A DNA stretch of 64,000 nucleotides from NCBI GenBank assembly GCA_031292175.1, contig JARLHQ010000003.1, positions 62,001 to 126,000 of the forward strand, in the 5' to 3' direction. The notes below the pieces were generated by a model, which was not told the origin of the DNA, searched no databases, and saw nothing but the letters and a program-made list of their open reading frames with translations. Every line of letters starts with the position of its first letter. Position 1 is the first letter of the stretch. The stretch comes from Humidesulfovibrio sp. (GTDB lineage Bacteria; Desulfobacterota; Desulfovibrionia; Desulfovibrionales; Desulfovibrionaceae). Positions 40,015 through 52,793 of this stretch are shown piece after piece. Position numbers and translations under genes: made by a program.

Positions 40015-41925
40015 ATGTGCGGCATTTGTGGAATTTACGCGCCAGGCGACGCTGGAGCGCTGGCCCCTCTGGCCGCCATGAACGCGTCTTTGGCCCATCG
40101 CGGTCCGGACGGCCATGGCCTGTGGACCGACCCGGATGCGTGCGTTGGCCTGGGGCACCGCCGGCTGGCCATCCTGGAGCTCTCGCCCTTGGGGCACCAG
40201 CCCATGCAGTCGGCCTCGGGCCGTTACGTGCTTTCCTACAACGGCGAAATCTTCAACCACGCCCGCCTGCGCGAGGAGCTCTCGCCCCTGGGGCACCCGT
40301 TCCGGGGTGGCTCGGACACGGAGGTTCTGCTCGCGGCCATCGAGCAGTGGGGACTCGCGGGCGCGCTCGGGCGCGCCATCGGCATGTTCGCCCTGGCCCT
40401 GTGGGACCGCCAGGAACGCCGTCTGTCGCTTGCGCGCGACCGGCTCGGCGTCAAACCCCTGTACCTGGGCCGCCTTGGCCTGGACGGACGGGGCGGCGTG
40501 CTCTTCGGCTCGGAGCTCAAGGCCCTGCGGCGGCATCCCGGCTTCAACGCGGGTCTGGACCGCGACGCCCTGGCGCTCTATTTCCGGCACAACTACATTC
40601 CGGCCCCGCACAGCATCTACGCCCAGGTGCAGAAGATCCTGCCCGGCGAGATCGTGACGTTCGCGCCCAGCGGCGAAACGCGCACGCGGTACTGGGACGC
40701 CGAAACGGTCTGGCGGCAAGGCTTCGCCGAGCCCTTCACCGCTGACGCGCAGGAGGTCACGGACGCCCTGGAGCGCCTGCTGCGGGACGCCGTGGCCCTG
40801 CGCATGCTGGCCGACGTGCCCGTGGGCGCGTTCCTGTCCGGCGGTGTGGACTCGAGCCTGGTCGCCGCGCTGATGCAGAAGCAAAGCGCCCGGCCGGTGC
40901 GCACCTTCTCCATCGGCTTCGCCGAGGCGGCCTACGACGAGGCCCCCCACGCGCGCGCCGTGGCCCGGCACCTGGGCTGCGCCCACACGGAGCTCACCGT
41001 CAGCGCGCACGATTTGCTGGACATCGTGCCGGACATGCCGCGCTTGTGGGACGAGCCCTTTGCCGATTCTTCGCAGATCCCCACGGCCATCCTCTGCCGT
41101 CTCACGCGGGGGCATGTCACCGTGGCCCTTTCCGGCGACGGGGGCGACGAGCTGTTCTCCGGCTATGAGCGCTACCCCTGGACCCTGCGCGCACACCGGC
41201 TCCTTTCCGTCGTGCCCGGCCCCCTGCGCCGCACGGCGCATGCGGCCCTGCGCCTCTTGCCCACCGCCTTCTGGGGCCTGCTTCCGCACGGACATAAGCT
41301 GCGCTGGCGGCTCGACGTCATGCGCGTCAGCGGTTTCGAGGCCCTGTACCGGCACTTCGTCTCGCATCTGAAGGACCCGCGCATCCTGGTGCCGGGCGCG
41401 CGGGAGCCGGAGTCCGCCGCCGCCCTGCTCCGCCCCCTGGGCGACACCACGGATGCGCGCCGGGCCTGGATGAGCCTGGCGGACATCCTGGGCTATCTGC
41501 CGGATGACATCCTGACCAAAGTGGACCGCGCCAGCATGGCCGTGGCCCTGGAAGCGCGCACGCCGCTTCTGGACCACCGGGTGGTGGAATTCGCCGCACA
41601 CGTGCCCCTGCACCTCAAGGTGGGCCCCGGCGGCCAAAGCAAATGGCTGTTGCGCCAGGTGCTGGGCCGCCATGTGCCCCAGGCCCTCGTGGACCGGCCC
41701 AAGATGGGCTTCGGCGTCCCCATCGCCGCCTGGCTCAGAGCCGAACTCAAAGCCTGGGCCGAGGATCTGCTCTCCCCAGCGACCATTCGCCGCCAGGGGA
41801 TTCTTGACGCCGCCTTTGTGGAACACATGTGGCGCGAATACCTGGCGGGCGAGGACAACTGGTGCCATTGCCTGTGGGACGTGCTCATGTTTCAGGCCTG
41901 GCTGGGCCAGGAGACCGCGCCATGA
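40015..41925 (+). CDS. asnB: AsnB-type asparagine synthetase / amidotransferase
   Basis: 636 residues, close to glutamine-hydrolysing AsnB proteins of surface-glycan clusters. Residue Cys2 of MCGICGIYAP is the glutaminase nucleophile; LAHRGPDG and the GATase II domain fill the first 210 residues. The synthetase half has the ATP pyrophosphatase loop FLSGGVDSSLVAAL and SGDGGDELFSGYERYP. In such loci these enzymes amidate uronic acids or make asparagine-like amides, so a sugar-amidating role is possible. The stop overlaps the next methyltransferase by 4 nt. Confidence 0.93.
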   Translation: MCGICGIYAPGDAGALAPLAAMNASLAHRGPDGHGLWTDPDACVGLGHRRLAILELSPLGHQPMQSASGRYVLSYNGEIFNHARLREELSPLGHPFRGGSDTEVLLAAIEQWGLAGALGRAIGMFALALWDRQERRLSLARDRLGVKPLYLGRLGLDGRGGVLFGSELKALRRHPGFNAGLDRDALALYFRHNYIPAPHSIYAQVQKILPGEIVTFAPSGETRTRYWDAETVWRQGFAEPFTADAQEVTDALERLLRDAVALRMLADVPVGAFLSGGVDSSLVAALMQKQSARPVRTFSIGFAEAAYDEAPHARAVARHLGCAHTELTVSAHDLLDIVPDMPRLWDEPFADSSQIPTAILCRLTRGHVTVALSGDGGDELFSGYERYPWTLRAHRLLSVVPGPLRRTAHAALRLLPTAFWGLLPHGHKLRWRLDVMRVSGFEALYRHFVSHLKDPRILVPGAREPESAAALLRPLGDTTDARRAWMSLADILGYLPDDILTKVDRASMAVALEARTPLLDHRVVEFAAHVPLHLKVGPGGQSKWLLRQVLGRHVPQALVDRPKMGFGVPIAAWLRAELKAWAEDLLSPATIRRQGILDAAFVEHMWREYLAGEDNWCHCLWDVLMFQAWLGQETAP

Positions 41926-42797
41926 CAACATCCTGGGATGAGGAGCTGCGCCGCGGGGAGCGCTTCGCCTTCGGGGCCAACTGGCGCGCCTTCCTGGCCC
42001 GGTTGAACCCGGAGCGTCTGCGCCAGGCCGAGGAGTCCCTGCGTGGACTGCTGGGCCAAGACAACCTCAGCGGCCTGCGCCTGCTGGACATGGGCTCCGG
42101 CTCCGGGCTGTTCTCCCTGGCCGCGCTGCTGTTGGGGGCTGTTGTGGTCTCCTGTGACTTTGACCCGGACTCCGTGGCCTGCACAGCTGGCCTGCGCCAA
42201 ACCTTCCTCCCGGACGACCCGGACTGGACGGTGCTGCACGGTTCCGTGCTGGACCACACATCCCTGGCCAAGTTGGGCAGCTTCGACGTGGTCTATTCCT
42301 GGGGCGTGCTGCACCACACCGGCGACCAGTGGACGGCTCTGGACAACGTGGCCCGGCTGGTGGCCCCAGGCGGACGGCTGGCCATCGCGTTGTACAACCA
42401 CCAGCCGTTCTTCACGCCGCTGCACCGGACCATGAAGCGCGCGGCCTGCCGCTGGCCGCACGCCGGGCGGCTCCTCATCGCCCCGGCATATGCCTTGGGC
42501 GTGGGCGCGGCCCTGGCCCTGGCCGACCTCGTGCGCGGCCGCAACCCGCTGGCCCGGCACAAGACCTCCGGCCTGCCGCGCGGCATGGATTTCTGGCACG
42601 ACGTCTGGGACTGGGTGGGCGGCTGGCCCTTTGAGACGAGCACGCCAGAACAAGTATTCAATTTCTGCCGCGCGCGGGGCTTCGAGCTGCGCACCCTGCG
42701 CACTGTGGGCGGCAAGTCCGGCTGCAACGAATTTGTGTTCGAGCGGACGATTCAATCCGCAGCCGACCGGAGTCCCGGCCCATGCGCCTTCTGCTGA
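41922..42797 (+). CDS. SAM-dependent class I methyltransferase
   Basis: 291 residues from MTTSWDEELRRGERFAFG (ATGA with asnB). Motif I LLDMGSGSGLFSLAALLLG, CDFDPDSV for the ribose-binding acidic residue, FDVVYSWGVLHHTGD as motif IV and PGGRLAIALYN. The C-terminal half contains a hydrophobic piece (LALADLVRG) and a conserved-looking FWHDVWDWVGGWPFE. This pattern is frequent in small-molecule or glycan methyltransferases. It overlaps the glycosyltransferase gene by 16 nt. Confidence 0.88.
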   Translation: MTTSWDEELRRGERFAFGANWRAFLARLNPERLRQAEESLRGLLGQDNLSGLRLLDMGSGSGLFSLAALLLGAVVVSCDFDPDSVACTAGLRQTFLPDDPDWTVLHGSVLDHTSLAKLGSFDVVYSWGVLHHTGDQWTALDNVARLVAPGGRLAIALYNHQPFFTPLHRTMKRAACRWPHAGRLLIAPAYALGVGAALALADLVRGRNPLARHKTSGLPRGMDFWHDVWDWVGGWPFETSTPEQVFNFCRARGFELRTLRTVGGKSGCNEFVFERTIQSAADRSPGPCAFC

Positions 42798-43891
42798 GCA
42801 TCCCCAGCTTGGCCCTGGGCGGAGCCGAGCGCCAGTTCGCGGCCCTGGCCTCCGGGCTGGCCGCGCGCGGGCACGATGTCCTGGCCGTGACCTTGGGCCG
42901 GGGCGGGCCGCTGGCCGAGTCCCTGGGCCGAGCACGGCTCGTGGAGTTGGGCAAGGCCTCGCGCCTGGACAATCCCCTTGTGGCCCTAGGATTGGCCAGG
43001 CTGCTGCGGCGCGAAGCCCCGGCCGTCCACTACGCCTTTCTGCCCAGTTGCTGTGTGCTGGGGGCGCTTCTTGCACCGTTTTTCCCGGCCACGCGGCTGG
43101 TCCTGGGCGTGCGCGCCTCCAACGTCGCGGGCCTGGGCCTAGCCGGACGGCTGCTGCACTGGCTGGAGGCCCGGCTGTCCCGCCGCGCCGCCCTCGTCAT
43201 CGCCAATTCCCAGGTCGGGTTGCGCCATTGCCTGGAGCGCGGCTTTCCCGCTGCGCGCGCGCAGGTGGTGCCAAATGGCATCGACGCGGAGCGCTTCCGC
43301 CCGGAGCGGGCCCTCGGCGCGGAGCTGCGCAGGGCGTGGGGCGCGGGCGATGAAGACAGGCTCATCGGGCTGGTGGCCCGACTGGACCCCATGAAGGGGC
43401 ACGCAATATTTCTGGCGGCGGCGGCCCGCCTTGCGAGGCAACGGCCCGAGGCGCGTTTCGTGTGCGTGGGCGGCGGTCCGGCGGACTACGCCGCATTCTT
43501 GCGGGACCAGGCCAGGGCCCTGGGCCTTGACACGCGGCTGGTGTGGGCGGGGGAGCGCCCGAACATGCCCGCCGTGTACAACGCGCTCGATTTCGTCTGC
43601 CTGAGTTCGACCTACGGCGAGGGCTTTCCCAATGTCCTTGGCGAGGCCATGGCCTGCGGCGTGCCTTGCGTGGCCACGGACGTGGGCGACGCGACGCTGG
43701 TGCTGGGCGGCACGGGCGTAGTGGTGCGTCCCGGCGACGCCATGGCTTTGGCGGAGGGATTGGCGGAGATGCTGGAGCGGCTGGGATGTGGAGACGTTGG
43801 CCTGGGGATGGCCTGCCGTGCGCACGTGTTGGCGGAGTTTTCCACTCCACGCATGGTGCTGGCCACAGAGGTTTTGCTCCGTGGTTTGTGA
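42782..43891 (+). CDS. Family 4 glycosyltransferase
   Basis: 369 residues, GT-B fold. N-terminal IPSLALGGAERQFAALASGLAARGH and C-terminal FVCLSSTYGEGFPNVLGEAMACG with the conserved E-x7-E of GT4, plus VPNGIDAERFRP between domains and LVARLDPMKGH at the start of the second. It is cytoplasmic or membrane-associated and retains stereochemistry. It is the last gene of the flippase-methyltransferase-asnB-methyltransferase-GT4 operon; sugar unknown. Confidence 0.92.
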   Translation: MRLLLSIPSLALGGAERQFAALASGLAARGHDVLAVTLGRGGPLAESLGRARLVELGKASRLDNPLVALGLARLLRREAPAVHYAFLPSCCVLGALLAPFFPATRLVLGVRASNVAGLGLAGRLLHWLEARLSRRAALVIANSQVGLRHCLERGFPAARAQVVPNGIDAERFRPERALGAELRRAWGAGDEDRLIGLVARLDPMKGHAIFLAAAARLARQRPEARFVCVGGGPADYAAFLRDQARALGLDTRLVWAGERPNMPAVYNALDFVCLSSTYGEGFPNVLGEAMACGVPCVATDVGDATLVLGGTGVVVRPGDAMALAEGLAEMLERLGCGDVGLGMACRAHVLAEFSTPRMVLATEVLLRGL

Positions 43892-44174: not shown

Positions 44175-45611
44175 ATGCCGACCGTTCTTGTGGTGGATGA
44201 CGACGATCTCTTCCGCGAACTCCTTTGCACTTCTATCGAGCGCAACGGCCATACGGCCATCGGAGCAGGAACTCTCGCCCAAGCCCGGCGTGCCCTGGTG
44301 GAGCGGGAAGTGGACGTGGTCTACCTCGACGTGCGGCTGCCCGACGGCTCAGGCATTGAGGCGCTGGAGGGCTTGCGCTCGGCCCAGGACCCGCCGGAGG
44401 TGATCATCGTCACCGGCCAGGGCGACCCGGATGGAGCGGAACTGGCCTTGCGCTGCGGCGCCTGGGACTACATCGAAAAGCCCGCCTCCGTGGACCGCAT
44501 GACCTTGCCCATGTTGCGCGCCCTCTCCTTCCGCTCGGAAAAACGTCGGCGCCATACCCCATCGTTGGTAGAACGATCCGGAATTATTGGGAAAAGCCAA
44601 CGGCTTGCAGCCTGCCTAGCCCAGGCGGGCATGGCCGCAGCCAGCGGCGTGGACGTGTTCATCACCGGCGAAACAGGGACCGGCAAGGAAATTTTCGCTC
44701 GGGCCATCCACGCCAGCGGTGGTCACGCCCAGGGGCCGTTCGTGGTCGTCGATTGCACGACGCTCCCTGGAAATCTTGCGGAAAGCGTTCTCTTCGGCCA
44801 CGAACGCGGTTCCTTCACCGGTGCCGACCGCCGGCAGACCGGCCTCATCGAGCAGGCCGACGGCGGCACGTTGTTTTTGGACGAGGTGGGCGAGCTCCCC
44901 CTCGGCATTCAGGCGAAATTCCTGCGCGTGCTGCAGGAACGCTGCTACCGGCCCGTTGGCGGCGGGCAGATGCACAAAAGTGACTTCCGGCTGGTGGCCG
45001 CCACCAACCGCGATCTCACGACCATGGCCAAGCGCGGCGAATTCCGCCACGACCTGCTGTACCGGTTGGGAGCCTTCTGCCTGGAGCTGCCACCCTTGCG
45101 TGAACGCGATGGCGACATCCAGGCCTTGCTGGAATGGCGGCTCGCGCGGCATGCCTCGCACACCCGCGACGCAAGCCCCTCGGCCAGCCCAGAGTACCTG
45201 GACCTCCTGCTCTCGCACAATTGGCCCGGCAATGTGCGCGAACTTCTGCAAACCGTGGACATGAGCCTTGTGGCCGCGCATGGTGAGAAAGTGCTGTTGC
45301 CCCAGCACCTGCCTCTGGAATTGCGTGTGCGGCTCATGCGCGGCCAGGTGGCTTCCCGGGCCTTTGCCGCGCACCCCCTCCTGGCTTCCACGGTGATCGA
45401 CCTGCGGCCTTGGCGGGAACACCGCGTGGATGTTCTGGAAAAAACGGAAAAAGACTACTTTTCCGCCTTGATGGCCTTTACCGCGGGCGATGCCGCCCAG
45501 GCCTCGGAATTATCCGGACTCAAGTCAGCCCGGCTTTATGAACTGCTCAACAAGCATGGCTTGGTGCGGGGACGGCGTGTGCAGGAGAATACTCCGGAAA
45601 GTCCGGAATAA
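44175..45611 (+). CDS. NtrC-like response regulator with GSFTGA variant loop
   Basis: 478 residues from the ATG behind GGAGG; the track begins at a TTG two codons earlier. Receiver domain 1-120 with VVDDDD, D in YLDVRLPDG and EKPAS. AAA+ domain with GETGTGKE, loop GSFTGA instead of GAFTGA, LFLDEVGELP and a terminal helix-turn-helix (AAQASELSGLKSARLYELLNKHG). GSFTGA variants exist in some NtrC-type proteins but are uncommon, so sigma54 activation should be tested. First gene of the signalling cluster. The AT-rich 230 nt upstream probably contain its promoter. Confidence 0.9.
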   Translation: MPTVLVVDDDDLFRELLCTSIERNGHTAIGAGTLAQARRALVEREVDVVYLDVRLPDGSGIEALEGLRSAQDPPEVIIVTGQGDPDGAELALRCGAWDYIEKPASVDRMTLPMLRALSFRSEKRRRHTPSLVERSGIIGKSQRLAACLAQAGMAAASGVDVFITGETGTGKEIFARAIHASGGHAQGPFVVVDCTTLPGNLAESVLFGHERGSFTGADRRQTGLIEQADGGTLFLDEVGELPLGIQAKFLRVLQERCYRPVGGGQMHKSDFRLVAATNRDLTTMAKRGEFRHDLLYRLGAFCLELPPLRERDGDIQALLEWRLARHASHTRDASPSASPEYLDLLLSHNWPGNVRELLQTVDMSLVAAHGEKVLLPQHLPLELRVRLMRGQVASRAFAAHPLLASTVIDLRPWREHRVDVLEKTEKDYFSALMAFTAGDAAQASELSGLKSARLYELLNKHGLVRGRRVQENTPESPE

Positions 45612-45766
45612 GTCCCCCACGCGGCAACTTACGGAAGGGATCATGCCACTGTTTTTGTGGCGCTGGGCCGCGCTGCGGCGTTTGGAACGAAATTTGATAC
45701 TCACTGAACGTTGCGCGGGTCCAAGAGGCCTTGGGCCATGCCGACCCGCCAATGGGAGGAAAGCCA

Positions 45767-46132
45767 ATGAGCAAAGTCCTCATCGCTGAAGACGACCCCA
45801 TCTCCCAGCGTTTCGTCTCCGCCATCGTGGAGCGGATGGGACACTGCGCCCTGGTGAGCCCAAACGGGCGCCATGCGTGGGAGGCCCTGACCGCCGAGAA
45901 CCATTTCAAACTGCTCATCACCGACATCATGATGCCCGGCATGGACGGAACGACGCTGATCCGCACACTGCGGGCGGATGAGCGCTTCAAGGACCTGCCC
46001 GTGGTGATCATGTCCGCGTTCATTGGCGTATCGGAAATTTCCAATCTTCTGGGCATCGGGGCCACATGGTTCATGCCCAAGCCAGTGGATCGCGCTGTGC
46101 TGGAGGATTATGTGAAGCGGGCCCTGGGATAG
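45767..46132 (+). CDS. Stand-alone CheY-like receiver
   Basis: 121 residues from MSKVLIAEDDPISQRFV behind GGGAGGAAAG; the track extends 12 codons upstream. The acidic pair is AEDDP, the phosphoacceptor sits in LITDIMMPGMDG, and the lysine in FMPKPV. There is no output domain. It could be a phosphorelay intermediate or single-domain output for the hybrid kinase that follows about 25 nt downstream. Confidence 0.9.
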   Translation: MSKVLIAEDDPISQRFVSAIVERMGHCALVSPNGRHAWEALTAENHFKLLITDIMMPGMDGTTLIRTLRADERFKDLPVVIMSAFIGVSEISNLLGIGATWFMPKPVDRAVLEDYVKRALG

Positions 46133-46156
46133 GCTTACAAGACAAGGCGGCCGTCC

Positions 46157-49100
46157 ATGCGTCATCCCCTGGTCCAGCGCCGAGACCACAGTCTCAGCCG
46201 ACCGCAGAACCGGCTCTGCCTCCGCGTCCAAGGCCCACGCCGCCGCCGGACGGGCCCGCGCCCAACAGGGCTTCTCGCCGCGGTCCTGTTCGCCGCAATC
46301 CTCTTTTTCCCGCAAGCCCCCTGGGGTCCACGGCAGGCCATGGCCGCCGCTCCCGAAGGCCAGGAGCTCGTGGCCGTGGTCCCGGCCAGCCTGCCCCCCT
46401 TCTACACCACCACCCCGGACGGCACGCCTTCCGGCTTCGCCGTGGAGGTCCTGCGCCAAGTGGCCGCCCGCGCGGGCTACCATCTGCGCATCATCACCAC
46501 GACCACGCCTGATGACGCCGGCCGCCTGCTGGAACAGGGCACCGCGCAGGTGCTGCCCGGCATGGGCGTCAGCCCGGAGCGCAGCCAGCGTTTTGCCTTC
46601 ACCCGGCCCATCGAAACCCACCCCGTGCACATCTTCACCCGCACCTCAGGCCCCCACCTTGAAAGCTTGGCCGCTCTGAGGGGGCTGCGGGTTTCGTTGC
46701 TCGCCGCCAGCATTCCCCTGGACCGACTGAGCAAAGATCAGGCGATCATCATCAACCAGTCCCAATCCCTGTCCCAGGCCCTGTTCGATCTCATTTCCGG
46801 CGGTACCGACGCCCTTGTTTTCCAAAGCCCTTTGGTGGAGCAGGCCGCCAGCGCCGCCGGGATCTCAGACCAACTCAGCCGCAGCCACCAACCCCTGTTC
46901 GAAGTGAGCGAGGCCATCGCCGTCAACCGCGGCCGCATGGACGTGCTGGCACGACTGGACGCGGCCTTGGGCAGCTACCGGGACACCCCGGCGTTCCGCT
47001 CCCTGTACCAGGCCTGGCACAAGGAGCCGGACCCGCCGTTTTTGCCTCCGACCACCCTCTGGATTGTGGCCGGCCTGTTCCTCGCCCTAACCGCATCGCT
47101 GCTCTTGTGGCGCTATGTGTCGCTCTTGCACATGAACCGCAAGCTCCTCACCGCGTTGGGCTCACGGGACAGCGCCCTGGCTGAGCTGCGCTTAACCCAG
47201 GACCGCATGGAGACCCTGCTCACCCTCACCCACATGGGTGGCGATGACACGGACAGCCTGATCAACTTCGCCCTGGAAGAGGGCGTGCGCCTCACCGGCA
47301 GCGGCATGGGCTTTCTTTTCTTTGTGGAGGGCGAGGACATCGACCTCTCCCGGGTGCACTGGTCACGCGGCGGCTTTCAGCATAACGTCGTGCCTGTGGC
47401 CCGCGTCTATCCCATTGCGCAGGCTGGACTTTGGGCCGAATGTCTGCGCACAAAAACCCCCTTGGTGATCAACGACTACGCCGCTGCCCCCGGTTTCAAG
47501 GAACTTCCCCCGGGCCACGCCAAACTTGAGCGCTTCATGGCCGTGCCCCTGGTGGAGAACGACCAGGCCGTGGCGGTCTTCGGCATGGCCAACAAAAGCA
47601 CGCCCTACGATGCCAACGACACCCGGCAGCTCCAGCTCTTTCTGGTCGGCCTGTGGCGGGTGCTGGCCTCCCGCCGTGATGCCGAGGCCATCCGCCAGGC
47701 CAAGGACTACGCCGAAAGCCTCATCGAGGGTGCCAACGCCATGCTCGTCGGGCTGGACACAGAGGGCCGCATCACCGTGTTCAATGCCGCTGCGGAGACC
47801 ATCAGCGGGTTCACCCGCGCCGAGGCGCTGGGGCGCGACTGGTTCCTCCTCGTACTGCCTGGACACCTGGCCACGGCCAGCGCAGCGCGCTACCGCGACT
47901 TCATGGCCGGGCGCGCGTCGTTGCCCCGGCAGCACGAAAGCGTGCTGCGCACCAAGTCTGGCCAGCTGCGGCACATCTCCTGGCAGAACAGCCTGCTCAG
48001 GCAGGCCGAGGCCGTCACCGGGACCATCTCCTATGGCATCGACATCACTGAGCAAAAACAAGCCGAGGCGAAGCTGCGCCGCCTGCACCGGGCCATTGAG
48101 CAAGTTGCCGAGGGGGTGCTCATTGCCGACGAGTCCGGACTGATCCTGTATGCCAACCCGGCCTTCGAACGCATGACGGGACTGAGGCGTGGCAGCGTGC
48201 CCCCCAGGGACCTGTCCGTGTTCGATCTCGACATTTCCGTGCTCGACCACCACAGCTTCGCCGTTTTGGGCGAGGGCCAGGAAAGGGCCTGGCGCGGCAC
48301 CTGCGTGTTCACTAAGTCCGGCTGCGCGCCCGTGGAGGTGGAGTTCACCGTGTCCGCCATCCGCAGCCGGGCAGACAGGCTGGTGAGCCATGTGGCCGTG
48401 TGCCGCGACGTCACCGAGAAGCGGCTCTTGGAGCACCAGCTCTGGCAAGCCCAAAAAATGGAGGCCCTGGGCACGCTGGCAGGTGGGATCGCGCATGACT
48501 TCAACAATCTGCTGGCGTCCATCATGGGCTTCACCGAGCTCGCCCTGGATGACACCACCAAGGAGTCGCGAGGACGCGCTTGCCTGGAGCGCGTGCTGGG
48601 GGCCAGCTTGCGTGCCCGCGAGCTGGTGCGCCAAATTCTTTCCTTCAGCCGCCGCAGCGAGCACAAGCTCAGGCACCTGCGCGCCGACAGCGTGGTGGCC
48701 GAGGCCCTCAAACTGCTGGAGGCTTCCCTGGCCAAGAACATCGACATCCAAAGCGAGCTGAACGCCGAGGCCACCATTCTGGCCGACCCCTCGCAGATCC
48801 ACCAGATCGTTATGAATCTGTGCACCAATGCCGCCCAGGCCATGCAGGGCACCGGCGGCCGGCTTCTTGTGCGCACCAGCGTCGGCCCGCTTCCGCCAGA
48901 ACTGGCCGCGCGTCACCGCCTACCGCCGGGCGAGTACCTCTCACTGCTGGTGGAGGACCAGGGGCCGGGCATTGGACCGGAGCTGCTCGTCCGCATCTTT
49001 GATCCCTTCTTCACCACCAAGGCGCCGGGCGAAGGCACCGGCCTCGGCCTGGCCGTCGTGCATGGCATCGTAACCAGCCTGGGTGGGACCGTGTGGGCGG

Positions 49101-49585
49101 AGAGCGAGCCGGGCCAGAGCACGCGTTTCCAGATCCTTCTGCCCACCCAGGCCAACGTCGAGGAAGCCCCGTGCAACGCCCCGTCCGGCGACCTGCGCGG
49201 GCAGGAGCGCATCCTCCTTGTGGACGACGAACCCGATCTGTTGGAGCTGGGTCAGCTGGCCCTGACTCCGCTAGGCTACCGCGTGGACACCCAAAGCTCG
49301 TCGGAAGCGGCGCTGCGACTGCTGCTGGACGAGCCCCACGCCTTTGACCTCGTCATCACCGACATGAACATGCCCCAGTTGAGCGGCGTGCAGCTTATCG
49401 AAGGCCTGCGCCCTGTGCGCCCCGATCTGCCCATCATCATCATCACCGGCTTCAGCAGGACCATCCCCCTGGATCGCCTGAAACCCCTTGGCGTTGTCCG
49501 GCTCCTGCCCAAGCCCTTTTCCACGAGCGAGCTGGCCCTGGCCGTACGCCAGGCGCTTGCTTCGCAAACAGGAGGGGAGTCATGA
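46157..49585 (+). CDS. Hybrid histidine kinase with periplasmic solute-binding domain
   Basis: 1142 residues. Arg-rich leader then membrane segment (GLLAAVLFAAILFFP); periplasmic SBP_bac_3-like domain about 70-290 (LVAVVPASLPPFYTTTPDGTPSGFAVEVLRQ is its start); membrane helix about 297-320; GAF domain about 345-510; two PAS domains about 525-770; HisKA with GGIAHDFNNLLASIMGF; HATPase with NLCTNAAQAM, EDQGPGIGPE and GTGLGLAVVHG; C-terminal receiver with LVDDEPD, VITDMNMPQ and LLPKPF. The solute-binding domain suggests direct sensing of a small periplasmic molecule, as in BvgS/EvgS. The stop overlaps the next receiver by 4 nt. Confidence 0.93.
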   Translation: MRHPLVQRRDHSLSRPQNRLCLRVQGPRRRRTGPRPTGLLAAVLFAAILFFPQAPWGPRQAMAAAPEGQELVAVVPASLPPFYTTTPDGTPSGFAVEVLRQVAARAGYHLRIITTTTPDDAGRLLEQGTAQVLPGMGVSPERSQRFAFTRPIETHPVHIFTRTSGPHLESLAALRGLRVSLLAASIPLDRLSKDQAIIINQSQSLSQALFDLISGGTDALVFQSPLVEQAASAAGISDQLSRSHQPLFEVSEAIAVNRGRMDVLARLDAALGSYRDTPAFRSLYQAWHKEPDPPFLPPTTLWIVAGLFLALTASLLLWRYVSLLHMNRKLLTALGSRDSALAELRLTQDRMETLLTLTHMGGDDTDSLINFALEEGVRLTGSGMGFLFFVEGEDIDLSRVHWSRGGFQHNVVPVARVYPIAQAGLWAECLRTKTPLVINDYAAAPGFKELPPGHAKLERFMAVPLVENDQAVAVFGMANKSTPYDANDTRQLQLFLVGLWRVLASRRDAEAIRQAKDYAESLIEGANAMLVGLDTEGRITVFNAAAETISGFTRAEALGRDWFLLVLPGHLATASAARYRDFMAGRASLPRQHESVLRTKSGQLRHISWQNSLLRQAEAVTGTISYGIDITEQKQAEAKLRRLHRAIEQVAEGVLIADESGLILYANPAFERMTGLRRGSVPPRDLSVFDLDISVLDHHSFAVLGEGQERAWRGTCVFTKSGCAPVEVEFTVSAIRSRADRLVSHVAVCRDVTEKRLLEHQLWQAQKMEALGTLAGGIAHDFNNLLASIMGFTELALDDTTKESRGRACLERVLGASLRARELVRQILSFSRRSEHKLRHLRADSVVAEALKLLEASLAKNIDIQSELNAEATILADPSQIHQIVMNLCTNAAQAMQGTGGRLLVRTSVGPLPPELAARHRLPPGEYLSLLVEDQGPGIGPELLVRIFDPFFTTKAPGEGTGLGLAVVHGIVTSLGGTVWAESEPGQSTRFQILLPTQANVEEAPCNAPSGDLRGQERILLVDDEPDLLELGQLALTPLGYRVDTQSSSEAALRLLLDEPHAFDLVITDMNMPQLSGVQLIEGLRPVRPDLPIIIITGFSRTIPLDRLKPLGVVRLLPKPFSTSELALAVRQALASQTGGES

Positions 49586-49986
49586 GCCAATGCATTCTTG
49601 TGGTTGACGACGACGGCGACGTGCGCGAATTGGTATGCCGGATGCTTGAGCAGGACGGCTACCGCGCCGTGCCGGCCGATGGCGGCAAACAGGCCCTGGA
49701 TCAACTCGGTCTGCTGAACCCGGACCTGGTCATCACCGACGTGGTTATGCCTGAGGTGGACGGATTCGAGGTGCTGCTCAAGCTGCGAAATCTGGCCCCA
49801 AAGGCCAAGGCCCTGGTGATATCGGGCGGCGGTCGCGTCGGCCCGGACATCTATCTGGAGACGGCAAGACGGCTCGGCGCCGGTGTCGTTTTGCGCAAGC
49901 CCTTCACCCGCGCCGAAATGCTCGAAGCCGTGCGGCAAGCCCTTGGCCAGAACACCGTCCTTCAACTCCACAGGCAGGAACCATGA
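49582..49986 (+). CDS. Stand-alone response-regulator receiver
   Basis: 134 residues: LVVDDDGD, phosphoacceptor in VITDVVMPEVDG, and LRKPF. No output domain follows. ATGA overlap with the hybrid kinase and a second ATGA overlap with the rubredoxin-domain gene make this the middle of a tightly coupled set. It is likely phosphorylated by the preceding hybrid kinase. Confidence 0.9.
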   Translation: MSQCILVVDDDGDVRELVCRMLEQDGYRAVPADGGKQALDQLGLLNPDLVITDVVMPEVDGFEVLLKLRNLAPKAKALVISGGGRVGPDIYLETARRLGAGVVLRKPFTRAEMLEAVRQALGQNTVLQLHRQEP

Positions 49987-50468
49987 CAATGCATTCTGAA
50001 ACCGAACCCTTGGCCGACGCCTTCGTCCGCCAATCCGTCGCCGCCGCCAAAAACCGCGTCCGCGCCCAGAAGGCCGCCCAAGAGGACAATCCCGTTCAGA
50101 CCCTGTTTCTGGCCTTGGCCCAGGGACAAGAAGTGCAGGCGAAGAAGGCCTTGCTGCTCCTGCGCGGGCGCATCGGCGTCACGACGGAGAACCTGGCCGA
50201 GGCGCTCCAGGAATCGCGCGAGATGGCCGTGGAGACCCTGCCATGGACCGTGCTGGCCCAGGCCGAGGGCGACCGCGCCGCAGGGGCCCTGCTGGTGCAG
50301 ATGGCCCGGGCCCAGGCAAGCCATCTGGCCGTGCACGAGGCCCCGCCCACCGAGGCGGCCGAGTATCACGTCTGCGCCATCTGCGGGCACATCCATCCAG
50401 GCGCGGATCCCGGCCGTTGTCCCGTGTGCCAAGCCCTGCCGGAAAAATTTATCGCCGTGCGAATCTGA
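49983..50468 (+). CDS. Helical protein with C-terminal rubredoxin-like domain
   Basis: 161 residues. Residues 1-120 are a helical region (ALAQGQEVQAKKALLLLRGR, NLAEALQESREMAVET, LLVQMARAQASHLAV). Residues about 125-161 (YHVCAICGHIHPGADPGRCPVCQ...FIAV) match the C-terminal rubredoxin-like domain of rubrerythrin, which binds one iron or zinc through four cysteines. The helical part lacks the EXXH pairs of a rubrerythrin di-iron site, so peroxidase activity is not expected. Coupled to the receiver gene by ATGA. A redox or metal-sensing adaptor in the signalling operon is my inference. Confidence 0.8.
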   Translation: MTMHSETEPLADAFVRQSVAAAKNRVRAQKAAQEDNPVQTLFLALAQGQEVQAKKALLLLRGRIGVTTENLAEALQESREMAVETLPWTVLAQAEGDRAAGALLVQMARAQASHLAVHEAPPTEAAEYHVCAICGHIHPGADPGRCPVCQALPEKFIAVRI

Positions 50469-50491
50469 GAAGCCGAGGGAGCTGCCGGGAC

Positions 50492-51328
50492 ATGTTGGTT
50501 GAAGCTCTGCACTACACCCGCGCTCGCCTTGGCGGCGAGTCGAACGCTTACGGACACCTGACCGAGCTGGTGGGAATATGGGCCAGGCAACGGCGACAAC
50601 GGCCGGCCTGGGCCGGACATCTGGCGCGCGCCCGGGCGCTGTGCTTGGCCGCGGCCGAATCCACGTTCCGTGAAACCCGACGCACAGCGCTGGTCTATGG
50701 GGCCGGCATTTTGAACGACATTCCGCTGGAACGGCTTTCGAGCCTATTCCGGCGAGTGGTGCTGGCGGACATGGCCTTTCTGCCCCGTACCGTCCACTTG
50801 GCCAAGGCTCTGGGCAATGTGGAGTTGATGCGCACCGACCTCACAGGCGTGCTGCACGCCCCGCCGCCATCGGAGTTCCTGGCCGCGCGCGCCCCGGCTC
50901 CCATGCCCGATCTCCGCCTCGGGCTAAAGGACGTGGACTTCGCCTATTCCGCGAACGTACTCTCGCAGCTGCCCCTCGCGGCCCTGGCGACGCTGGGCGA
51001 ACGCACTCCCGCCCCGGACCCGCAGCACCTCAAGGCCTACGCGGCCTCCCTGGTGCGCGCACATTTGGCTGCCCTGAAGATCCTGCCTTGTCCGGCCTGC
51101 CTGGTGACGGACTTTCAGGAGCAAGGCCTAGCGGGCGGACAAACACACTACGATGACAACCTGCTCTTCGGCGTGGACCCAGCCCTGCCAGGCGAGACCT
51201 GGACCTGGCGGTTGGCTCCGCGCGGCGAGGCGCACCCAGAGCTCGACATTGAACGCCACGTACTCGGCGCGCCCGACGTCCACGCGGGCCCTGACCACGA
51301 AATTCCTCATGGAGACCGCAATGCCTGA
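50492..51328 (+). CDS. Methyltransferase-like Rossmann protein, unknown function
   Basis: 278 residues from MLVEALHYTRARLGGE; the track start lies inside the previous gene. A nucleotide-binding-like stretch TALVYGAGILNDIPLERL, then FRRVVLADMAFLP and VDFAYSANVLSQLPL, follow the order of motif I, motif II and motif IV of class I methyltransferases, although the glycine motif is GAG rather than GxGxG. LPCPACLVTDFQEQGL is notable for its cysteines. I do not recognise the family. It sits between the rubredoxin-domain gene and the divergent kinase and overlaps the latter by 8 nt. Confidence 0.7.
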   Translation: MLVEALHYTRARLGGESNAYGHLTELVGIWARQRRQRPAWAGHLARARALCLAAAESTFRETRRTALVYGAGILNDIPLERLSSLFRRVVLADMAFLPRTVHLAKALGNVELMRTDLTGVLHAPPPSEFLAARAPAPMPDLRLGLKDVDFAYSANVLSQLPLAALATLGERTPAPDPQHLKAYAASLVRAHLAALKILPCPACLVTDFQEQGLAGGQTHYDDNLLFGVDPALPGETWTWRLAPRGEAHPELDIERHVLGAPDVHAGPDHEIPHGDRNA

Positions 51329-52793
51329 CCCCCATCCCGACCCGCTCGCTCAAGGACCCGCCCTGGACCGCGACGGCCAGACCACTGAACAGACACTCGG
51401 GCAGGCCATTGAGCAGGCCGCCGGACAAACCTCCGAACAACACGCGCCCATACCGCCAGATCCGGCCCACTGCCTGGAGAACGACATCCAGCGTATGCGC
51501 AGTCTGGAGCGGCAGGTGCACCTGAAGAATGAGGAAGCCGAAGGCTACGGGTTTGGTCTGGACGAGCAGCGCCTGCTCAACATCTTTTTCGACCTCGCTG
51601 CGGAATATGACTCGCGCCGCGATCTGCTCAACATCTGCGTGCTGCTGCCCATGATATTCTTCCAGCAAGAGGTGCGGGTGTATCTGCGCACCGCGCCCGA
51701 ATCCTGGCGGCTGGCGCGCAGCCTGACCCTTCCCAAGCACCTCCCGGACAGCGAGCCTCCGGCCGAGCCGACCGTGCGCGGCCGCCACTTCTACGCACCC
51801 ATCCGGGCCCGCCAGGACACCGCGGAACTGCTGGGCTTTCCGCTGGAGAAGGGCATCCTCGGCTGGATCGAGGTCGTCGGTGGCGCGGATCTGTCCGACA
51901 CCCGGAAACATTTCTTCGAGAAATACGCCGGGCGCATCGGCTACCAGATGCACAACCGCATGGCCCGCACGAAAAACCGCGAGCACCTGAGCTTCATCCA
52001 GAATCTCGTTGCGGACATCGGCCACAACGTCATCGTGCCCAATATGACCTTCAAACTCTTTTTCAACCGGCTGCGCGGCGCCATCTCCGCGCTGGAGGGC
52101 CTTATCCTGGAGGCCCCGGCCGACACCCCGCGCCCGTTCCTGCAAGAGCTGGATGCGCTGCAGGCCCGCATGCGCACGCAATACGAGGAGATTAACCGCC
52201 ACTACGAGCAAACCAGCCTGTTTCTGGAAACCCTGTTGCGCCGCAGGCACTTCGAGGAAGGCCGCTACGTTCTTGAAAAACGCCTAGTGAACCTGCGCCA
52301 CCAAGTGGTCGAGCCGCAGGTGGAGCGTTTCCGTCCGCGCCTTTCCGACCGGGGCGTGGCGATCGACCTGTCCATGGGCGGCATCCCGAACAAACCTGTG
52401 TTGCTCATGGCCGACTTGGGGCTCATCGCCCAGGTCTACGCCAATCTCTTCTCCAACGCCGTCAAATACACGCGCGCCGTCACCGGGTCCGACGGCCTGG
52501 CGAAGAAATTCATGGCCTACGGCTGGAGCGTGCTGCCCGATGTCTTCGGTCCCGGCCAGAATGGCGTGAAGCTTAACGTCTTCACAACCGGGCCCGTTAT
52601 TCCCGAGAAGGAACGCGAGGAACTTTTCCGTCCCGGCTTCCGCGCCAGCACCACCGGGCGGGAGCACGGGACCGGCCAGGGCTTGGCCTTCGTGCGCCAA
52701 GTGGTGGCCTTGCACGGTGGTCAGGTAGGTTACGAGGCCGCGCCCCTCGGCAACAACTTCTTCATCATCCTGCCCCTGGATCCGGGCCGTTAA
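51321..52793 (+). CDS. Divergent histidine-kinase-like protein
   Basis: 490 residues from MPDPHPDPLAQGP, where GGAG lies upstream and the stop of the previous gene overlaps by 8 nt. No membrane helix is visible, so it should be cytoplasmic. Residues about 70-210 are a GAF-like or unknown domain; a helical segment with IGHNVIVPNMTFKLFFNRL resembles a dimerisation/phosphoacceptor helix with His. The ATPase domain keeps the N box (LFSNAVKYT) and a G2 box (GTGQGLAFVRQVV), but the G1 box is VFTTGPVIP with no DXGXG aspartate. Catalysis is doubtful; a pseudokinase or phosphotransfer partner is possible. Confidence 0.82.
   Translation: MPDPHPDPLAQGPALDRDGQTTEQTLGQAIEQAAGQTSEQHAPIPPDPAHCLENDIQRMRSLERQVHLKNEEAEGYGFGLDEQRLLNIFFDLAAEYDSRRDLLNICVLLPMIFFQQEVRVYLRTAPESWRLARSLTLPKHLPDSEPPAEPTVRGRHFYAPIRARQDTAELLGFPLEKGILGWIEVVGGADLSDTRKHFFEKYAGRIGYQMHNRMARTKNREHLSFIQNLVADIGHNVIVPNMTFKLFFNRLRGAISALEGLILEAPADTPRPFLQELDALQARMRTQYEEINRHYEQTSLFLETLLRRRHFEEGRYVLEKRLVNLRHQVVEPQVERFRPRLSDRGVAIDLSMGGIPNKPVLLMADLGLIAQVYANLFSNAVKYTRAVTGSDGLAKKFMAYGWSVLPDVFGPGQNGVKLNVFTTGPVIPEKEREELFRPGFRASTTGREHGTGQGLAFVRQVVALHGGQVGYEAAPLGNNFFIILPLDPGR

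Follow-up and report, generated by a model that had tools for sequence, protein, structure and literature searches.

A seven-gene signalling cluster in Humidesulfovibrio

The window analyzed here is a stretch of 64,000 nucleotides (nt) from Humidesulfovibrio sp. (assembly GCA_031292175.1, contig JARLHQ010000003.1, positions 62,001 to 126,000 of the forward strand), and our subject is a cluster of seven genes at 44175-52793 of it, a two-component system that is familiar in kind but includes a novel type of member. All seven open reading frames are open and lie on the plus strand, and the gene order, overlaps, 23-nt gap and motifs described in a sequence-only reading of this DNA were re-derived exactly. 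The first gene (44175..45611) encodes an NtrC-type sigma54-dependent response regulator with a receiver domain (REC), an AAA+ domain carrying GSFTGA and a Fis-type helix-turn-helix (Pfam Response_reg 1.8e-21, Sigma54_activat 1.9e-61). It is followed by a single-domain receiver of 121 amino acids (aa), REC2 (45767..46132; Response_reg 2.4e-20), and by a hybrid histidine kinase (46157..49585) with the Pfam domain order SBP_bac_3, transmembrane segment, GAF, PAS, PAS, HisKA, HATPase_c and REC. The H, N, G1 and G2 motifs of this kinase are intact as read by eye, and its PAS-HisKA-HATPase-REC order is that of the CckA type by Pfam; against the NCBIfam CckA models it scored 290 and 255 bits, far under the cut-offs of 1000. 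A second single-domain receiver of 134 aa, REC4 (49582..49986; Response_reg 6.2e-22), has a start that overlaps the kinase stop. The last three genes encode a 161-aa protein (49983..50468), a 278-aa protein (50492..51328) and a 490-aa protein of histidine-kinase type (51321..52793).

The intergenic distances are, in gene order, 155, 24, -4, -4, +23 and -8 nt. REC4 overlaps the genes on both sides, the hybrid kinase and the 161-aa gene, by 4 nt each, and is translationally coupled to both. The sequence-only reading had seen here a signalling cluster in which a hybrid kinase that senses the periplasm is joined by two single receivers and a protein with a rubredoxin centre. Pfam and synteny agree with it, and the operon is conserved.

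A rubrerythrin that has lost diiron ligands

Residues 10-158 of the 161-aa protein align with Pyrococcus furiosus rubrerythrin (phmmer, PDB 3mps/1nnq, E 1e-11), with ~27% identity to rubrerythrin over the full length. Its AlphaFold model, with a mean predicted local distance difference test score (pLDDT) of 87.7, consists of four helices and a rubredoxin-like end, and the top Foldseek match in PDB was again rubrerythrin (1nnq, E 1.1e-7, template modelling (TM) score ~0.6). Both the four-helix bundle and the C-terminal rubredoxin domain of rubrerythrin are thus present, and the Pfam and NCBIfam matches concentrate on the rubredoxin part. The earlier description of a rubredoxin domain on a helical stalk was right about the rubredoxin centre, but the stalk was rejected, given that the rubrerythrin alignment extends over 10-158 and not over the rubredoxin end alone, and the helices are instead a rubrerythrin bundle from which the diiron site has been removed.

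In sulerythrin, whose diiron ligands are as in rubrerythrin, the bridging residues are Glu53 and Glu126, terminal ligation is by Glu20, His56, Glu92 and His129, and Glu95 lies nearby (PMC9589262); the positions scored in our ligand table were taken from this literature. Among the Humidesulfovibrio copies, E20 and E53 are replaced by Gln in 13/13, and H56 by Gln in about half. Positions are given in Desulfovibrio vulgaris rubrerythrin numbering, in which we take Glu92, Glu95, Glu126 and His129 of sulerythrin to be E94, E97, E127 and H131. On this basis, Q17, Q49, Q52 and Q111 of the 161-aa protein occupy positions E20, E53, H56 and E127, and the last of these is Gln, Leu, Val or Met in all 13 copies. 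The residues corresponding to E94 and E97 (matched over a one-residue gap) and to H131 are retained, and helix C is one residue shorter than in rubrerythrin. Also intact is the rubredoxin knuckle formed by C131, C134, C146 and C149 (CxxCG and CPVC, codons within 50373..50429), whose four cysteines do not vary in any rubrerythrin or pseudo-rubrerythrin that we tabulated, and the bundle is 59-81% conserved within the genus. Judged by its sequence, the 161-aa protein is a full-length rubrerythrin in which the diiron site has been dismantled and the four-cysteine iron (or zinc) knuckle kept, here called a pseudo-rubrerythrin, and it has probably ceased to be a peroxidase.

A search with an intact rubrerythrin as query led us to reject the idea that the genus has no second rubrerythrin: Humidesulfovibrio additionally carries an intact 190-aa protein, encoded in an oxidative-stress gene run. 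In the window's own genome this run (L274; G000, C25, 1141-7101; genes named by eye) comprises a methyl-accepting chemotaxis protein (MCP), a short PilZ-like protein, a PerR/Fur-like regulator, the intact rubrerythrin, a desulfoferrodoxin-like protein, two fused rubredoxins and a flavodiiron protein. With the intact enzyme beside such genes, the detoxifying job is covered.

Conservation of the cluster within the genus

The order from the NtrC-like regulator to the 490-aa gene is syntenic in the Humidesulfovibrio relatives wherever contigs reach far enough. Of the 15 Humidesulfovibrio genomes, 13 have the 161-, 278- and 490-aa genes together; the other two, which are 73% and 83% complete, have none of the three. 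The NtrC orthologue has the equivalent position in every contig that reaches so far, except in genome G013, and REC2 is 68-88% identical across 11 relatives. Some automated spacing values in the relatives (for example 385-402) count the hybrid kinase's own receiver domain instead of REC4, as checked for L126. The ratio of nonsynonymous to synonymous substitution rates (dN/dS) was ~0.12-0.47 over all seven genes in usable genome pairs, one higher value of 0.54 stemming from an NtrC gene cut off by a contig end. For the 161-aa gene it was ~0.13-0.40, which points to purifying selection. Since the gene order recurs in other genomes of the genus and dN/dS is low, the cluster is not a chance arrangement.

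Genome G013, at 99% completeness, offers a natural deletion in which NtrC, the hybrid kinase and REC4 are gone and REC2 is followed directly by the 161-, 278- and 490-aa genes. Across this whole genome no orthologue of NtrC or of the hybrid kinase was found; the best matches reached 49% for NtrC and 42% for the kinase, and the second of these has no solute-binding (SBP) part.

Upstream of the cluster in the window (40015-43891) lie asparagine-synthetase-like, methyltransferase and glycosyltransferase genes, as they do in several Humidesulfovibrio relatives.

The 490-aa and 278-aa proteins

The 490-aa protein has an N-terminal region with no confident Pfam match, helices resembling a dimerization and histidine phosphotransfer (DHp) domain with an H-box, and a HATPase_c domain (8.4e-13) that is recognized in 24/24 orthologues. 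The putative phospho-acceptor H235 (DIGHNVIVPN, codon 52023..52025), N379 of the N box and G450, G452 and G454 of G2 are invariant in these 24 diverse sequences. At the position of the G1 Asp (DxGxG), which normally contacts adenine in the GHKL fold, the family has Thr in 13 and Ser in 11 of the 24 and never Asp, so that the absence of this residue is a trait of the family and not local decay. The sequence-only reading had taken the protein for a non-catalytic partner lacking its G1 box; the missing Asp is borne out, but "non-catalytic" is hard to maintain with the H-box, N-box and G2 invariant throughout.

Of 199 sampled genomes of the family Desulfovibrionaceae, 118 have an orthologue, always as a single copy (26/44 genera), and the protein family extends to other orders of Desulfobacterota. 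Outside Humidesulfovibrio the gene lies elsewhere, and 25 further genera sampled from the family have it without the operon, so that the 490-aa protein is a conserved kinase-like orphan which the Humidesulfovibrio operon has captured. Two of the genera sampled, g3 and g47, have the orthologue next to or overlapping the gene of a REC-PAS-HisKA protein in which Pfam recognizes no ATPase domain (L085 6515-7972, L103, L109, L116), and the two may form a separate relay pair. The invariant H-box, N-box and G2 glycines are also what would be expected if the 490-aa protein were simply an active kinase acting on REC2 or REC4, which still bound ATP with Ser or Thr at G1 and was neither a phosphotransferase nor a dead partner. 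We treat this as a serious alternative, one to which we give somewhat less than an even chance, since the G1 Asp is absent in all 24 orthologues and the pairing with an ATPase-less protein in g3 and g47 fits a relay role.

For the 278-aa protein there were zero Pfam or PDB sequence matches. The best Foldseek matches of its AlphaFold model (pLDDT 89.7) were DhpI, NodS and NNMT (E 1e-5 to 1e-4, TM score <0.5), so that a Rossmann fold like that of class I methyltransferases is the closest assignment for this unnamed family, at a low TM score. Residues G70, G72, D93, D116 and D149 are invariant; glycine motif I is GAGxLxD and not GxGxG, and the invariant D93 would be the acidic residue after beta 2. 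When genome contigs were scanned with the 278-aa protein, no relatives were confirmed, and one of its relatives, used as query against plasmids, had no match.

The relatives of the 278-aa protein in other genera stand in unrelated gene contexts. The sequence-only reading had named the separate occurrence of the 161-, 278- and 490-aa proteins as a result that would speak against it. They do stay together in Humidesulfovibrio, but in other genera all three are found apart, as that condition states; they are therefore not obligate partners, and that idea was rejected.

Bridge-less rubrerythrins across Desulfobacterota

Further copies were collected with a profile of the altered proteins, that is, by sequence and not by gene context. 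Matches were found in Pseudodesulfovibrio and one more genus of the family, and beyond it in further families of Desulfobacterota. Both bridging residues, E53 and E127, are lost in the 13 Humidesulfovibrio copies and in 11 others (24 in all), and each of the 38 rubrerythrins classed as intact or intermediate has both. In the family tree, 19 pseudo-rubrerythrins fall on one side of a branch with 100/100 support, which makes a single origin of the family's pseudo-rubrerythrins likely on this phylogeny.

A gene for a histidine kinase, receiver, MCP or SpoIIE phosphatase lies within 1.5 kb of 21/24 bridge-less rubrerythrins, versus 5/38 of those with both bridges, and four of these five are the Humidesulfovibrio rubrerythrin near one MCP. 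The Fisher test gave ~3e-9 per locus and ~0.001 per genus (7/9 bridge-less versus 2/~19 both-bridge genera by hand tally); it was computed with 5/39 and 2/18, and the recount to 5/38 and 2/19 makes a negligible difference. The neighbours are diverse. They include a hemerythrin-domain MCP, divergent, in three genomes; an NtrY-type kinase encoded in the same direction, 31 bp upstream; a divergently encoded PAS hybrid kinase beside one copy and a PAS kinase 81 bp downstream of another; a SpoIIE phosphatase gene overlapping by 4 nt; a receiver gene 87 bp upstream; and, as another pairing with an O2 sensor, a convergent protoglobin-domain histidine kinase (L295 6777-7931). These neighbours across the phylum suggest that an antioxidant enzyme has been turned into a part of redox signalling. 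In the open-access PMC literature we found no earlier description of diiron-less rubrerythrins or of signalling linked to rubrerythrin.

Intermediate rubrerythrins from other Desulfobacterota families (L285-L290, L292-L294) keep both bridges and have Ala at E97 (GETxEF to NEIRANV); they showed no signalling neighbours within 1.5 kb and may be a third functional type.

A proposed mechanism and its alternatives

We propose, at a probability of roughly 0.55, that the locus is a multi-step two-component system into which a former peroxide-reducing enzyme was recruited as a signalling part, a redox or metal adaptor in a phosphorelay. The recruitment of a rubrerythrin into signalling is well supported; the signal and the wiring are what we infer. 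Part of the evidence is G013, which keeps REC2, the pseudo-rubrerythrin and the 278- and 490-aa genes after losing the rest. The hybrid kinase would sense a small periplasmic ligand through its SBP_bac_3 domain and phosphorylate its own receiver. From there the phosphate would reach REC2, REC4 and the NtrC-like regulator by way of a histidine, for which H235 of the 490-aa protein is a plausible candidate; the regulator would act at sigma54 promoters. The redox state (or metal occupancy) of the FeS4 knuckle is predicted to control the contact of the pseudo-rubrerythrin with REC4, the 490-aa kinase or both, so that information on redox state or metal from the cytoplasm would enter the flow of phosphate; a periplasmic ligand and a cytoplasmic input would in this way be combined at the cluster, as had been suggested earlier. 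The methyltransferase-like 278-aa protein would form part of the module. No Hpt protein lies inside the cluster; because at least four Hpt domains above the Pfam cut-off lie elsewhere in the genome, H235 is not the sole relay candidate.

Several observations weigh against this proposal. The phosphate route through the 490-aa protein comes from motif reading, the knuckle metal may be Fe or Zn and its redox response is predicted, and adjacency of genes is not interaction of their products. The E94, E97 and H131 equivalents are kept, so that the bundle may still hold a mononuclear metal. A search for -24/-12 sites of sigma54 ahead of the first three genes gave scattered weak matches, none conserved. 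Across the phylum, 3/24 bridge-less copies have no signalling neighbour, several contexts outside Humidesulfovibrio are divergent or convergent and not co-transcribed, and long branches, of which the tree program warned, lower the trust in a single origin.

The G013 deletion may also be read as the survival of one of two separate modules that stand side by side with no common wiring, NtrC and the hybrid kinase in one and REC2, the pseudo-rubrerythrin and the 278- and 490-aa proteins in the other, and the 490-aa kinase does occur alone in the 25 other genera. We consider such independence unlikely, in that order and tight spacing are kept through the genus, G013 lost REC4 together with the hybrid kinase, and REC4 is translationally coupled to both its neighbours. 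Less probable still is a structural zinc-ribbon adaptor or scaffold that holds a receiver and a kinase, is not redox-active and lost its diiron site only with the old enzymatic job. Knuckles of the form CxxC...CPxC are able to bind Zn, and the diiron ligands all drift while the bundle fold stays, but this knuckle is of the rubrerythrin/rubredoxin type with its cysteine positions retained in every copy, and the O2 or redox sensors among the neighbours of its relatives (the hemerythrin-MCP and the protoglobin kinase) favour a redox theme. A rubredoxin-like electron donor or acceptor that is merely co-transcribed with the two-component genes, as a lone FeS4 knuckle able to carry electrons and the rubredoxin-centred NCBIfam and Pfam matches would allow, seems very doubtful given the sensory genes adjoining in several unrelated contexts, the 4-nt overlap with the receiver gene and a bundle maintained within the genus despite no longer holding an enzyme site.

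Beyond recruitment at this locus, we suggest more tentatively, at a little short of an even chance, that the bridge-less, knuckle-intact rubrerythrins make up an undescribed class of redox or metal adaptors that descend from a peroxide-detoxifying enzyme and serve pathways of the two-component, chemotaxis and SpoIIE-phosphatase kinds across Desulfobacterota, with the Humidesulfovibrio operon as their most elaborate setting. Cytoplasmic oxygen and redox sensing in strict anaerobes is only partly known. If true, this would be a clear case of evolution from enzyme to sensor, in which the catalytic metals were given up and the iron knuckle was kept, now beside kinases, receivers and chemoreceptors. 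The general pattern, in which rubrerythrins have gone from enzymatic work to an association with signalling, is worth following, and rubrerythrin annotations and counts in anaerobe genomes mix peroxidases with proteins unlikely to be peroxidases. The G1-less orphan kinase family, single-copy in most sampled Desulfovibrionaceae, is a separate problem.

Comparison with known systems

The pseudo-rubrerythrin shares its length, its bundle-then-rubredoxin layout and its four cysteines with rubrerythrins of the D. vulgaris and P. furiosus type (PDB 1ryt, 1nnq, 3mps); unlike them, it is without E20, E53, E127 and often H56, and its gene lies in a signalling operon, whereas theirs adjoins oxidative-stress genes. 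Sulerythrin and ferriperoxin, relatives of rubrerythrin that have no rubredoxin domain, share the bundle fold but show the opposite loss, keeping the diiron site without an FeS4 knuckle. The 278-aa protein resembles class I S-adenosylmethionine methyltransferases (DhpI 3ou2, NodS 3ofk, NNMT) in its putative overall Rossmann fold, as matched by Foldseek, and departs from them in its TM score below 0.5, its atypical motif I and its lack of a Pfam match.

Phosphotransferases of the ChpT/Spo0B type have the DHp His in common with the 490-aa protein and have generally lost the ATP-binding motifs, whereas the 490-aa protein keeps its N-box and G2 and has lost only the G1 Asp. The CckA-ChpT-CtrA/CpdR phosphorelay of Caulobacter and Spo0B offer counterparts to the CckA-like hybrid kinase, the single-domain receiver, the DNA-binding regulator and the His protein with an altered ATPase, which could hand on phosphate; the Humidesulfovibrio cluster differs in that its regulator is NtrC-like and its phosphotransfer is predicted. 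A parallel to the proposed coupling is mycobacterial PknG, in which a rubredoxin domain controls the kinase, so that a rubredoxin centre is joined to phosphorylation signalling as we propose for the 161-aa protein. PknG is a single Ser/Thr kinase polypeptide with no rubrerythrin ancestry, whereas in Humidesulfovibrio the centre is carried by a separate protein encoded beside two-component genes.

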